A DNA stretch of 34,939 bases from IMG/VR virus record IMGVR_UViG_3300030389_001169, positions 1 through 34,939 of that record; one strand, written 5' to 3'. The notes under the pieces are model-generated. The model was not told the origin of the DNA. It did no database searches and worked only from the letters and a program-made list of their open reading frames with translations. The DNA comes from a virus. Positions 1 through 34,939 of this stretch are shown here, one piece after another; the first letter of the stretch is position 1; each line of letters opens with the position of its first letter. Position numbers and translations under genes: made by a program.

Positions 1-181
1 GAAAATAGATCGCTTAATTGAAATAATGTTAGAATTAAAAGAATTAGCAATATCACTAGATGATCCACGTAATGATCAAGACACTATTATAGCAACAATA
101 CTTGCACTAATCATCTGCGTAGATATACCAGATGTAACCATTTTACCTAATAATATGAACATAGGAATCGCATTAGCATGA
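1..181 (+). CDS. Small conserved phage protein, 5'-truncated copy
   Basis: This is the C-terminal 59 codons of a short protein whose complete version lies at 33942-34136. The window opens inside the gene, so no start is visible. The stop codon overlaps the start of the next gene as ATGA (178-181), implying translational coupling. Two residues differ from the intact copy (an Ile for an Arg, and an Ile for a Met); the other base changes are silent. The N-terminal part is charged and probably helical, followed by a hydrophobic segment containing IICVDIPDV. Its function is unknown. Its position just before the head-tail connector-like gene is the only clue. Confidence 0.7.
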   Translation, partial: KIDRLIEIMLELKELAISLDDPRNDQDTIIATILALIICVDIPDVTILPNNMNIGIALA

Positions 182-984
182 GTTATTTAACCGCATTTTG
201 TAATATAACAACCGATTTACAAGCAATTGTTAGTGATATAGATCGATATGATCGTAAAAGAGTTTTAATGTCTAATTGGAGCAACCCTAGTAGCAATCTT
301 TATCGGCTAAGTAACACAGGATATATAGAAAATTTATACAAGGATGGAGTAGAAATGACAAAAGTCACTGATACTCCAAACGCAGATAACGAATTTAAAT
401 ACAGCGAATCAACTGATTCTGTTGATTTCTTTTTAGCATCTAGCTCAGTAGCTGCACTCAATAGCAGTGTATTTGAAGCTGGTCAAGATTGGGAAGATCT
501 TAAAACACGCGTAGTAAAAGAACAAGCTGATCATATGCGCAGTTTTTTAAATAGACCTATATACAAGCGTGGTAATACCAATTACCAAGGCGCAGCAGAT
601 AGGCCATATGACTTTATAGTAATTCGATGCAATGCGTTGTTAGCCTGCGCTGATTTGGTGCGCAGTCAAGATCCAGAAAAAGCCGCAGAGCTTGATGAAT
701 TAGTATTAGGTGATGATGGTTTACTTACTAAGTTAAAAAGGCGTGATTATGTCATGTGGCATGAAACATCGTTTAGAAGTGAATCTGGTGTAATACGTGA
801 GGTAAGTGTCAATGGATCAACTACTGGGTATATCGAAGATATTAAAATGTTTGGACCACCTAGCACAGATTATGATGAGGTGCGTGTGGTTATTAGCACA
901 GCAGGTACATTTAGTCCTGGAACTGCATCTACAGTTAAGTATGATGTTTTTACTAAGGATGACACTGGATTACGTAGGCATAAA
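1..984. repeat. Terminal repeat, left copy (diverged)
   Basis: Bases 1-984 align without gaps to 33956-34939 (offset 33,955), with about 49-50 mismatches by eye, that is, about 95% identity. Differences are concentrated at third codon positions. This defines the genome unit length and shows that the two ends come from different strain variants. Confidence 0.95.
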
Positions 985-11320: not shown

Positions 11321-11705
11321 TTTAACCATAGATATGCGTGGGGTGTGCGGAGAACTCGCTGTGTGTAAAAAATATAATGCCTATCCTGACTTTGTAATTG
11401 GACCACATTATAGTGGCTATGATCTTAGTATTAATGATGTAAAGATTGATGTTAAGACTACAAAGTATAATCCTGGGTATTTACAAGCAAAGCTAAAAAA
11501 GAACATAAAAGACTGTGATGCATTTATATTAGTGCATGATGCAAGTCCTGTATTTACGTTGCTAGGCTGGGCAAAGTCTGAAGAATTACTCTCTGAATCA
11601 AATATAAAGGACACTGGTTATGGTCCTAATTATAATATGGATAGTACATCGTTAACTACGATGGAGTTTTTTGAACCTTATATAGAATGGAAACAAAATG
11701 CATAG
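11274..11705 (+). CDS. Putative PD-(D/E)XK nuclease
   Basis: A 143-aa protein. ATG 11274 is chosen because the frame upstream of it overlaps the preceding gene and has no family features. The nuclease core is visible as GVCGELAV (Glu27), SGYDLSIND (Asp50) and KIDVKTTKY (Asp59-x-Lys61), the E-D-DxK arrangement of restriction-endonuclease-like folds. A hydrophobic strand (DAFILVHDA) follows. The target is unknown; in phages such proteins act as recombination nucleases or homing-type endonucleases. The next gene is a second nuclease of similar size, and the two overlap by 8 nt. Confidence 0.65.
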   Translation: MNQNQRNGVTSRGQRDLTIDMRGVCGELAVCKKYNAYPDFVIGPHYSGYDLSINDVKIDVKTTKYNPGYLQAKLKKNIKDCDAFILVHDASPVFTLLGWAKSEELLSESNIKDTGYGPNYNMDSTSLTTMEFFEPYIEWKQNA

Positions 11706-12084
11706 TCAATATAAAGGTGCAATAGGAGAGCTTGCAGTTCAAAAAGATTTGTTAATACAAGGATATAATGTGTATCATCCTTTGGTTGATGCAGATCAAG
11801 TTGATTTAGTGGTAGAAATGAAAAATGGTGCAATGAAAAAAGTGCAGATTAAATCAGTTGCACACAAAGCTAAGAGAACAGCAATAGAAGTTAATTTAAG
11901 TAAATATAAAAATACAAATCGAGTAGATGTAGTTGCAGTGTATTATTGTCCAAAAGATATAATAGCATACGTGCCATATGAAAATACACATGCACTTACA
12001 TTGGCACTAACAACAGGTAAGAACAATCAGAGCAAAGGCAGAAAATGGTTTTATTCTTACGAAAGGTTTCCAGAGTTTAGCTGA
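11698..12084 (+). CDS. Putative PD-(D/E)XK endonuclease, homing-type-like
   Basis: A 128-aa protein with the order KGAIGELAVQKDLLIQGYNV (Glu11), DADQVDLVVEM (Asp36) and KKVQIKSV (Gln50-x-Lys52). This is the pattern of the small PD-(D/E)XK family that includes group I intron-associated endonucleases (I-Ssp6803I type), as far as I can judge from memory. The C-terminal half has two strands (VDVVAVYYC, IIAYVPYE). It overlaps the preceding nuclease and is followed by a TGATG overlap. Because the capsid gene of this phage carries a group I intron with no ORF, a role in trans is conceivable but unproven. Confidence 0.62.
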   Translation: MHSQYKGAIGELAVQKDLLIQGYNVYHPLVDADQVDLVVEMKNGAMKKVQIKSVAHKAKRTAIEVNLSKYKNTNRVDVVAVYYCPKDIIAYVPYENTHALTLALTTGKNNQSKGRKWFYSYERFPEFS

Positions 12085-20567: not shown

Positions 20568-21829
20568 CTCTAAAGCTAGGTATCGCGTCTGTTTAATGGG
20601 CAGACGTAGTGGAAAATCCTACATGGCAGCGCATGAGATCATGCCTTGGCTGCTGACACCCAACACACGTGGTTGGATTGTAGGACCAAACTACTCACTG
20701 GCAAATAAGATTGCACGTGAGGTAAAGCGTATTGTAATGACAGAACTAAGACTGCCATTAGAAAGCAAAAAAGAGATTTCTGGCGATTTATACTATATGA
20801 AGCTAGCAGGCTTAAATAGTGAAATAGTTGTAAAATCGGCTGACGCAGTCGATTCTTTAATTGGAGATGGCTGAATGGGTTTCCCATTCACTTTTTAACA
20901 TTGGCATTGATTACTTAATAATAGATGAAGCAGCACTTATCCCACGTAATACATACGAGATGTATTTAAGACCTACATTAGCAGATCGCCAAGGTTGGTG
21001 TTTATTTATTAGTACACCTCGTGGATTCAACTACCTGCACAAGCTCTACAAAGACTTTGGTAAGAATCCTGAGTTTCCTGACTGGGAATCATGGCGATTT
21101 CCATCTACAGTATCTCCATATTTTAAAGATGATGTAGAGGAACTGAAGCGCACACTAACAAAAGAAACCTATCGTCAAGAGTTTCTTTGCGAGTTTCAGT
21201 CTTATCAGGGCAAGGTATATCCACTAGATAGAGAAAGACAGATACGCGAGGATGTAACCTACGATCCATCGAAGCCTGTATATATGGGTATAGATTTTGG
21301 CTATCGCCACAGCGCAGCAATTATCGTGCAGTTGCACAAGCGTGAGAAAAACTTTGCTGAAGTACATCAAATTGACGAAGTCAACCTGCAAAACACGCGT
21401 ACAGAGGAGTTTGCACGTAAAATTAACTCACTTGGCTACGAATTTACTGGTATATGGGGCGATCCAGCAGGATCTGGCACAAATTTGCAGTCAGGAATCA
21501 GTGATATAGCCGTTTTTAAGCAGCATGGCTTAAACGTCAAGATCAAACGCGACGCAGTAACCAGAAATGTAGTGTCTGGAGTATCGCATGTACGCAGGTG
21601 GTTTGAGGATGCGAATGGTGATCCTCACTTTTTTATTCATCCTAAGTGCAAGGCAAGTATCGAATCATACGAAAATTATCATTATCCAGAGCATCGTGAA
21701 GATCAAACTCTGCGCCACGAACCTAAAAAGGATGGTAAGTTTGACCATCACTGCGATGCACTTAGATTTTTGCTTACTAATTTGTTTCCAATGAAAAACC
21801 GACACGCTGGTGTCATCGATTTCTTTTAA
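20527..21829 (+). CDS. Terminase large subunit, interrupted by a 34-nt recoding element
   Basis: The packaging ATPase-nuclease. The N-terminal part has the adenine-binding segment YQPTPQQLAVH and Walker A MGRRSGKS. It runs to KSADAVDSLIGDG and then meets TGA (20872-20874). After 34 nt the coding continues in another frame as IDYLIIDEAALIP (Walker B, catalytic Glu), FISTPRG, and the RNase H-type nuclease with GIDFG, GDPAGS and DHHCDALRF. If the 34 nt are skipped, the product is about 422 aa with an uninterrupted G-(D/E)-G-(I/L)-D-Y junction, as expected of this family. If a +1 shift is used instead, 11 extra residues (EWVSHSLFNIG) appear. The start is uncertain: TTG 20527 with GGAGG close upstream, or TTG 20485; no ATG is available in frame near the N-terminus. 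Confidence 0.85.
20869..20905 (+). promoter_or_regulatory. Candidate translational bypass element in terL
   Basis: Take-off codon GGC (20869-20871) is followed at once by stop UGA (20872-20874). A perfect hairpin TGAATGGG / TTT / CCCATTCA (20872-20890) follows, then CTTTTTAACATT and a matching landing codon GGC (20903-20905). Conserved coding resumes at 20906. Same-sense take-off and landing Gly codons, a stop in the gap and a hairpin beginning at the stop are the defining features of the T4 gene 60 bypass. The gap here is 34 nt against 50 in T4. No Shine-Dalgarno-like triplet is obvious before the landing codon. Confidence 0.6.
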
Positions 21830-24869: not shown

Positions 24870-25982
24870 ATGGCTGATGGTAACGTAACAACTACCACCG
24901 CGGCTAAGTTCATCCCAGAGTTCGACAGGACGTTTTCATAGGTAACTATGATTATTATGATTGCGGAATTAAGCGGGAAACCTAAGTGCAATAGCATAAG
25001 GCAATCCGAACCGAAGGCTGTGTTTAGCGCAGTCAGGGGCAGAGCATAGATGGTGAAAAGATATAATCCATCCAAGAGTCCGCGACTACTTACTGAGTAG
25101 AAAAGATATGCCGATACTCCATAGAAATGTGGAGATGTGAGATAAAAAACTCACTGTAACAATTGATGGCGTGACGCAATACTAGACTACGCAGAGCGTA
25201 AGTTTGAGTTGCGTAACCAGGTGATGGACTTTTCATCCGAATTACCTTCTGGAGATGTACTCCATATACCAAAGGTAACAGAGGAGACTGCCGCCGCAAA
25301 ATCCGCAGGAAGTGCGGTAACTTACACAAACAACACTGATGGTGAAGTCACCATTACTGTTGATCAACATCATTATGAAGCGAAGAGAATCGAAGATATT
25401 GTTCGCGTTCAGGAAAGTGCAAACCTTTTTGGTGCATATGCTCAGTCTATGGGTTATGCATTAGCTAAGAAAGTTGAAAACTACTTGGCAGTGGATGTAC
25501 TTCAATCTGCAACAGGTAATGATGTGTCTCTTTCAACAGATAACCAAGTAACCTCTGCGCTATTACGTAGTGGTTTACAGAAGTTATTAGATGCAGGTCA
25601 CGATTACGCTGATGGTGAAACATTTTTATATGCATCACCTGCTGCGTACATGTACCTCTTGAGTTTGCAGGATTTTTATGATTCATCTCGTAGAGGTGAT
25701 GAGCAAAATCCTAATGTCTCTGGTGGCGTAGGAATGATCTATGGTATGCCAACATACATTTCAACTGATTGGGATGATGATGGTGGATCTGGTGATGAAA
25801 CTGCGACTGTATTCAAAAAAGAAGCAGTGTACATGGCAATGCAGATCGCACCTCGCGTGCAGTCAGCATATGACATAGATCACTTAGCGACAAGCGTGGT
25901 TGCCGACATTTTGTTTGGCGCATCTTTGTCACATGGTGCTTCCAGTACATCACTTGGAGTTGTTAACTTTAACAATCCATAA
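24870..25982 (+). CDS. Major capsid protein, gene split by group I intron (exons 24870-24922 and 25166-25982)
   Basis: A HK97-fold-type coat protein of 289 aa after splicing. Exon 1 encodes MADGNVTTTTAAKFIPE plus two bases of a Leu codon, and exon 2 continues WRDAILDYAERKFELRNQ. The joined sequence IPELWRDAILDYAE reads like the N-arm of related capsid proteins. Without splicing, translation stops at TAG 24939-24941 after 23 codons. Exon 2 alone would begin at a TTG (25209) and lack the N-arm. Start ATG 24870 has AAGGAAAG upstream. The rest of the protein shows VLHIPKVTEETAAAKS (E-loop region), a long spine helix near NLFGAYAQSMGYALAKKVE and a P-domain ending ALSHGASSTSLG-like. It follows the scaffold gene directly. 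Confidence 0.85.
24923..25165 (+). ncRNA. Group I self-splicing intron (IA-like), 243 nt, no ORF
   Basis: Predicted splice sites follow the group I rules: exon 1 ends in U (24922) and the intron ends in G (25165). Core pairings visible: P3 TTGCGGA (24961-24967) with TCCGCGA (25079-25085); P4 CGGG (24974-24977) with TCCG (25005-25008); P5 CCT with AGG; P6 GGCTG (25016-25020) with CAGTC (25030-25034); P7 GCATA (25044-25048) with TATGC (25107-25111); P8 CTACT (25086-25090) with AGTAG (25096-25100). The extra hairpin GATGG/CCATC (25049-25072) between P7 and P3' is a P7.1, typical of subgroup IA, common in phages. The S element is AAGATATGCC, and the P9 and P9.1 hairpins are at 25117-25134 and 25137-25154. 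P1 pairing is less clear. The intron has no room for a homing endonuclease. Confidence 0.88.
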
Positions 25983-33949: not shown

Positions 33950-34136
33950 TGCGCAGAAAATAGATCGATTAATTGAAATAATGTTAGAATTAAAAGAACT
34001 AGCAAGATCACTAGATGATCCACGTAACGATCAAGACACGATTATAGCAACAATGCTTGCACTAATTATCTGCGTAGATATACCAGATGTCACCATTTTA
34101 CCTAATAATATGAACATAGGAATTGCATTAGCATGA
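33942..34136 (+). CDS. Small conserved phage protein, intact copy
   Basis: A 64-aa protein, intact version of the truncated gene at the window start. N-terminal half charged and helical (KIDRLIEIMLELKELARSLDD), then a hydrophobic region (IIATMLALIICVDIPDV). ATG 33942 overlaps the endolysin. Stop overlaps the next gene as ATGA (34133-34136). Confidence 0.7.
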   Translation: MDDAQKIDRLIEIMLELKELARSLDDPRNDQDTIIATMLALIICVDIPDVTILPNNMNIGIALA

Positions 34137-34939
34137 GTTATTTAACCGCATTTTGTAATATAACAACCGATTTACAAGCAATCGTTAGTGATATAGATCG
34201 ATATGATCGTAAAAGAGTTTTAATGTCTAATTGGAGCAATCCTAGTAGCAATCTTTATCGGCTAAGTAACACAGGATATATAGAAAATTTATACAAAGAT
34301 GGAGTCGAAATGACGAAAGTCACTGATACTCCAAACGCAGATAACGAATTTAAATACAATGAATCAACTGACTCTGTTGATTTCTTTTTAGCATCTAGCT
34401 CAGTAGCTGCGCTTAATAGCAGTGTCTTTGAAGCTGGTCAAGATTGGGAAGATTTAAAAACACGTGTGGTAAAAGAACAAGCTGATCATATGCGCAGTTT
34501 TTTGAATCGTCCTATATACAAGCGTGGTAATTCTAATTATCAAGGCGCAGCAGATAGACCATATGACTTTATAGTGATTCGATGCAATGCGTTGTTAGCC
34601 TGCGCTGATTTGGTGCGCAGTCAGGATTCAGAGAAAGCTGCGGAGCTTGATGAATTGGTTTTAGGTGACGATGGTTTACTTACTAAGTTAAAAAGACGTG
34701 ATTATGTCATGTGGCATGAAACATCGTTTAGAAGTGAATCTGGGGTAATACGTGAGGTGAGTGTCAATGGATCAACTACTGGATATATCGAAGATATTAA
34801 AATGTATGGACCACCTAGCACAGATTATGATGAGGTGCGTGTGGTCATTAGTACAGCAGGTACATTTTCTCCTGGAACTGCATCTACAGTTAAGTATGAT
34901 GTTTTTACTAAGGATGACACTGGATTACGTAGGCATAAA
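33956..34939. repeat. Terminal repeat, right copy (diverged)
   Basis: Second copy of the 984-nt segment. Because true phage terminal redundancies are identical within one molecule, divergence points to a composite of co-existing strains, or to a concatemer with recombination. Confidence 0.95.
34133..34939 (+). CDS. Head-tail connector-like protein, 3'-truncated copy
   Basis: The first 269 codons of the same protein encoded at 178-1149, cut by the window end. Differences from the first copy are mainly silent; amino-acid changes include Ser to Asn, Phe to Tyr and Thr to Ser. Reading frame and overlap with the upstream gene are preserved. Confidence 0.75.
   Translation, partial: MSYLTAFCNITTDLQAIVSDIDRYDRKRVLMSNWSNPSSNLYRLSNTGYIENLYKDGVEMTKVTDTPNADNEFKYNESTDSVDFFLASSSVAALNSSVFEAGQDWEDLKTRVVKEQADHMRSFLNRPIYKRGNSNYQGAADRPYDFIVIRCNALLACADLVRSQDSEKAAELDELVLGDDGLLTKLKRRDYVMWHETSFRSESGVIREVSVNGSTTGYIEDIKMYGPPSTDYDEVRVVISTAGTFSPGTASTVKYDVFTKDDTGLRRHK

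Follow-up and report, generated by a model that had tools for sequence, protein, structure and literature searches.

Short inserts at one site in phage terminase large subunit genes form a patchy family and are probably read by translational bypassing

The gene for the terminase large subunit (terL) in a 34,939-nt stretch of viral DNA from IMG/VR, hereafter the window, is divided between two reading frames (Table 1). A small-terminase-like gene adjoins it upstream, and terL therefore lies within an ordinary packaging module. The first terL segment ends with the residues SLIGDG, and the Walker B sequence IDYLIIDEA (ATT GAT TAC and onward) is read in a different frame. A first-pass annotation, made from the letters alone, had described a frame break at 20863-20911 with a perfect 8-bp stem and UUU loop beginning at the UGA; on re-reading, the break agrees with that description to the base, and the stem and loop are present as described. 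The 34 nt that it assigned to the element is correct for the insert as compared with uninterrupted relatives, one GGC included, whereas the gap to be bypassed is 31 nt (20872-20902). Taken alone, the hairpin of the window has an unexceptional fold (z = -1.42), and comparison of the window with Rfam at the gathering threshold gave no matches.

Table 1. The interrupted terL gene of the window and the elements at its junction
Feature	Position in window	Strand	Description and basis
terL upstream segment	20485..20871	+	Walker A GRRSGKS; C-terminal end ...VDSLIGDG; homologous to the N-terminal half of uninterrupted relatives, e.g. L145; start is a mechanically assigned TTG, and the true start codon may sit slightly downstream
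Take-off codon GGC (Gly)	20869..20871	+	Sequence
UGA stop	20872..20874	+	Directly 3′ of the take-off codon, within the hairpin; sequence
Take-off hairpin, 8 bp	20872..20890	+	UGAAUGGG-UUU-CCCAUUCA (DNA: TGAATGGG-TTT-CCCATTCA); sequence, fold, family comparison
AU-rich linker	20891..20902	+	CUUUUUAACAUU; sequence
Landing triplet GGC	20903..20905	+	Same as take-off codon; sequence
terL downstream segment	20906..21829	+	Carries Walker B (IDYLIIDEA) and the nuclease part; stop codon 21827-21829; Terminase_6N PF03237, 1.2e-6

Relatives were collected from IMG/VR by a search with the downstream TerL segment together with one DNA pattern scan, and removal of duplicates left 154 distinct terL junction contexts. 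The motif SL[IV]G[DE]G, or a near variant of it, is continuous with xDYLxxDE in a single frame in 119 of these contexts; this is the GDG-IDYLIIDEA-like junction that the first-pass annotation had expected of TerL homologues. L250 and L282, whose motif is divergent, are counted among the 119. The other 35 contexts carry a short insert at this position, and alignment of sites with and without an insert yields the codon-exact boundaries that had been predicted. What had been taken for a single oddity is instead one member of a patchy family of varied terL cassettes. The best TerL match among isolates is only ~31% identical, and every isolate match sampled is encoded in a single piece; a search of prophages returned nothing useful.

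A decaying, defective terL or an assembly artefact, the latter raised by the annotation itself, would account for the broken frame only. The 31-nt gap of the window recurs in contig L001, whose downstream protein part is 98% identical, and different inserts occupy the same terL site in many other contigs, so the insert is not an assembly error; the same or equivalent inserts are present in independent metagenomes. Comparisons between insert-bearing pairs, where dS could be estimated, gave dN/dS values of 0 to ~0.28 upstream and 0 to ~0.17 downstream. Because these values lie well below 1 on both sides of the insert, both parts of terL are maintained by strong purifying selection, and we regard a defective gene or an artefact as extremely improbable.

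The gaps in the 35 insert-bearing contexts range from 22 to 49 nt, and on the basis of their layout they fall into two structural classes. Class I (23 contexts) consists of a GGT or GGC take-off codon, a UGA, a hairpin beginning exactly at that UGA, an AU-rich linker, and a GGT or GGC landing triplet, which is replaced by AGC in five cases. A variant, class Ia (4 contexts), has the same layout one codon later, with ATT and ATC as take-off and landing triplets in L151, L164 and L220, and CTT at both positions in L231. Class II (8 contexts: L073, L154, L155, L159, L188, L189, L214 and L252) is characterized by a long, very stable hairpin built from runs of C and G, and its take-off lies two codons earlier, at SLIG, with GGT followed by GGC, or GGG by GGT in L252. 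A UGA directly follows the take-off codon in all 27 class I and Ia contexts and in none of the eight class II contexts. Class II inserts may work by another trigger.

In every one of the 25 distinct stop-type gaps, a stem of 5 bp or more begins exactly at the stop, a feature expected in 3.9% of cases per gap after shuffling. Fifteen different stem and loop sequences are represented, with GNRA, UUCG, UGCG or UUU loops, and the 8-bp stems include a compensated pair (UGAAUGGG/CCCAUUCA versus UGAAUAGG/CCUAUUCA) for which L139 supplies the G-U intermediate. Judged from this comparison, the hairpin is conserved as a structure and not as a sequence.

The distribution of the gaps over reading frames bears on a second explanation offered by the first-pass annotation, namely +1 frameshifting at GGC-UGA, by which EWVSHSLFNIG would be inserted just before Walker B. 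The +1 frame of the window is indeed open across the insert. Related inserts, however, occur in all three frames (9, 6 and 8 contexts in class I), and several of them have extra stops in the frame that would be required. Because gaps of 22-49 nt occupy all three frames, no single frameshift or readthrough rule can serve for the family. None of the relatives retrieved contains EWVSHSLFNIG in an otherwise uninterrupted frame, and frameshifting would leave the match between take-off and landing codons unexplained; we find this explanation hardly credible. An alternative genetic code in which UGA specifies tryptophan was also rejected, as gaps are in addition out of frame and contain TAA.

To assess codon matching, the landing triplet was defined solely by its position beside the first codon with homology to uninterrupted TerL. 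In 25 of the 31 distinct gaps, this triplet is cognate to the tRNA that would occupy the take-off codon, as with the two GGC codons of the window; the cognate pairs are GGY with GGY, together with ATT and ATC (three gaps) and CTT and CTT (one gap). Many of the matches are wobble-synonymous rather than identical (GGT and GGC; ATT and ATC), a pattern that fits re-pairing of a tRNA better than simple target-site duplication; the initial match may nonetheless stem from a short duplication created at insertion. At the take-off position, class I inserts have GGY in 23 of 23 cases, as compared with 73 of 118 at the same position in empty sites, where GGA or GGG occupies the other 45 (Fisher p 1e-4, indicative only, as the sequences are related). 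In five of the 31 distinct gaps (L144, L142, L099, L077 and L198, from two TerL lineages), the resume codon is preceded by AGC, a triplet with which a GGY-reading tRNA-Gly forms a mispair at position 1. These cases count against bypassing, and a near-cognate landing rule is one possible explanation for them.

The two segments could also be translated separately, with a first protein ending at the UGA and a second initiated or reinitiated near the stop, such that ATPase and nuclease halves assemble afterward. Starts that overlap a UGA are common in phages, and the window has an ATG at 20867, in the downstream frame, from which reinitiation could occur; in 10 other contexts as well, the resume codon has an ATG or TTG ahead of it in that frame. 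In 24 of the 35 contexts, however, the stretch from the last in-frame stop to the resume codon contains no ATG, GTG or TTG, and for 21 of these 24 the next start falls beyond the Walker B acids. In L205, a stop lies directly 5′ of the landing triplet. With no start codon in that stretch in 24 of 35 contexts, initiation of the second part on its own cannot account for the family in general. A split terL would also leave both the landing codon match and the placement of the hairpin at the stop unexplained, and we judge it quite improbable.

Removal of the insert before translation, either at the RNA level as a mini-intron or at the DNA level by exact excision, would be in keeping with the clean boundaries and with the likely group I intron in the capsid gene of the same genome. 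To our knowledge, however, no known self-splicing intron is as short as these gaps (22-49 nt). The codon-level rules, with a stop after take-off and wobble-synonymous landing, are translational in nature, and insert-bearing DNA is widespread, with both halves of the gene under selection. We accordingly consider removal of the insert very improbable.

The best explanation, and in our assessment a highly probable one given the patterns across these sequences, is that the inserts are programmed translational bypass elements within terL. The filled and empty sites, the codon-exact boundaries, the stop and hairpin in 25 of 25 stop-type gaps, and the occurrence of gaps in all three frames support the GGC-to-GGC hop that the first-pass annotation had proposed. 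On the model of T4 gene 60, the peptidyl-tRNA would dissociate, the ribosome would slide, and the tRNA would pair again at the landing site. In the window, a ribosome would reach the GGC with UGA in its A site, and the hairpin starting at the UGA would fold beside the P-site codon and favor release of peptidyl-tRNA-Gly from the codon over termination. The ribosome would then slide by ~31 nt, the tRNA would re-pair with the second GGC, and decoding would resume at ATT to yield a continuous ...SLIGDG-IDYLIIDEA... TerL protein. Besides the AGC landings and, for the window, the ATG at 20867, two observations count against bypassing: class II inserts have no stop at take-off, and a Shine-Dalgarno-like sequence upstream of the landing site is found in just one of 24 distinct stop-type linkers.

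Natural long-range bypassing is counted as rare, with T4 gene 60 as the only well-studied phage case (PMC5009743). Its known elements include a take-off stem-loop in the A site, a stop after the take-off codon, and matched GGA codons (PMC11194080, PMC5009743). Used as a control in our scan, gene 60 reads GGA-UAGCC-UUCG-GGCUA-...-GGA and displays the same geometry. As in that 50-nt GGA-to-GGA element, the terL inserts combine matched glycine take-off and landing codons with a stop directly after take-off and a small GC hairpin with a tetraloop starting at the stop. They likewise interrupt an essential enzyme subunit, and their gaps are below the 56 nt under which sliding in T4 is efficient (PMC11194080). 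They differ in that the host gene is terL, the stop is UGA rather than UAG, most gaps are shorter (22-32 nt for inserts of the stop type), ATT and CTT also serve as take-off codons, and many variants exist where T4 has one. A Shine-Dalgarno-like sequence before the landing site, which has a modest effect in T4 (PMC5009743) and is accordingly regarded as accessory, occurs among the terL inserts in the single linker noted above. T4-type bypassing also involves a KKYK nascent peptide signal and a 5′ stem-loop. The filled terL of L164 and the empty terL of L163 can share the same upstream protein, and an insert-specific upstream peptide is therefore probably not part of the system. Since relatives with and without an insert can have identical proteins, the bypass signal would reside in the cassette and not in the upstream peptide.

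Other systems share some of these features. In the mitochondria of Magnusiomyces capitatus there are 81 byp inserts, some with an imperfect match between take-off and landing (PMC5009743); there too, many short inserts are tolerated through hopping, but those elements are spread over 12 mitochondrial genes, whereas the present ones are in phages, at one spot in one gene, with a stop and hairpin at a fixed place. For Streptomyces phage Hau3, a terminase bypass tied to a UUA codon and with a much shorter gap has been suggested (PMC5009743), and the idea of bypassing in a phage terminase gene is therefore not wholly new; Hau3, compared here by description only, has no described stop-hairpin cassette. 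A 29-nt hop in the Prevotella loescheii adhesin, reported to be difficult to reproduce in E. coli (PMC5009743), is a bacterial hop of similar length for which no family is known. Given these two precedents, T4 is not the only prior case, and the first-pass view of the window as a second natural bacterial-type case needs amending. Within the literature covered, which leaves most subscription papers and bioRxiv preprints outside it, we found no report of a family of terL hop inserts, and it is this family that is new: a patchily distributed set of many short, exchangeable candidate hop cassettes, divided between two structural classes and using three take-off codons, all located at a single position of an essential phage gene.

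When the inserts were mapped on a TerL tree from which their own columns had been left out, presence and absence required no fewer than 22 changes, and well-supported branches force 15 of these. Close neighbors on the tree bear different cassettes (L137 and L138 versus L139), L164 and L163 have 0 amino-acid differences in the tree-aligned residues, and the junctions of L159 and L157 are identical save for the 52-nt insert of L159. From these patterns we infer that cassettes have been exchanged as DNA between phages. A further proposal, which we hold as tentative and slightly short of an even prospect, is that self-sufficient, portable hop cassettes of ~25-52 nt act as minimal DNA elements, either mobile or swappable, at a single terL hot spot. 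The cassette alone would suffice, Gly, Ile and Leu codons would all work, and spread would be harmless to the essential gene, possibly by way of a nuclease-resistant site.

Two cassette types were sought in IMG/VR by pattern scans, and related loci were scanned as well; no convincing inserts were found outside terL. A scan for the stop-hairpin-landing arrangement over ~2.1 Mb, both strands, recovered T4 gene 60 as a control, with one apparent chance match in the T4 region, and its non-terL matches resemble overlapping-frame or chance matches. Unlike T4 gene 60 with its mobA-type endonuclease, the terL inserts have none found nearby. In 45 records searched with PF11645, PF13392 and PF01541 and compared for gene content between filled and empty genomes, no linked homing endonuclease was found; these contigs are fragmentary, and other nuclease families are possible. 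HNH_3 occurs in none of the 45 records, and GIY-YIG in four, all insert-free. A PDDEXK_5 gene of the window (11698-12081; PF11645, 1e-14) was rejected as a cassette-linked nuclease, since it is found in 29 of 45 related records, whether filled or empty.

With dozens of natural variants, clean pairs of filled and empty sites, and three take-off codons, the rules of hopping become directly testable, including the roles of the hairpin, the stop, the landing codon, gap length and the nascent peptide. The terL inserts also suggest that essential phage genes tolerate inserts of a new kind, and gene callers will report terminases that bear them as broken.

Two further features of the window were observed. 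The major capsid gene is interrupted at 24870-25190 by a likely group I intron of ~240 nt (Rfam RF00028, 19.6 bits, E 0.008, below the gathering threshold), with exon 1 corresponding to MADGNVTTTTAAKFIPE(L) and exon 2 resuming at WRDAILDYAERKF; a similar capsid interruption is apparently present in L019 and L206 and is absent from most relatives (e.g. L145 and L141). The ends of the window (1-984 and 33956-34939) are near-identical over 984 bases, with 49 mismatches, which points to a genome of ~33.96 kb that is circularly permuted or redundant and was assembled from a mixed population.
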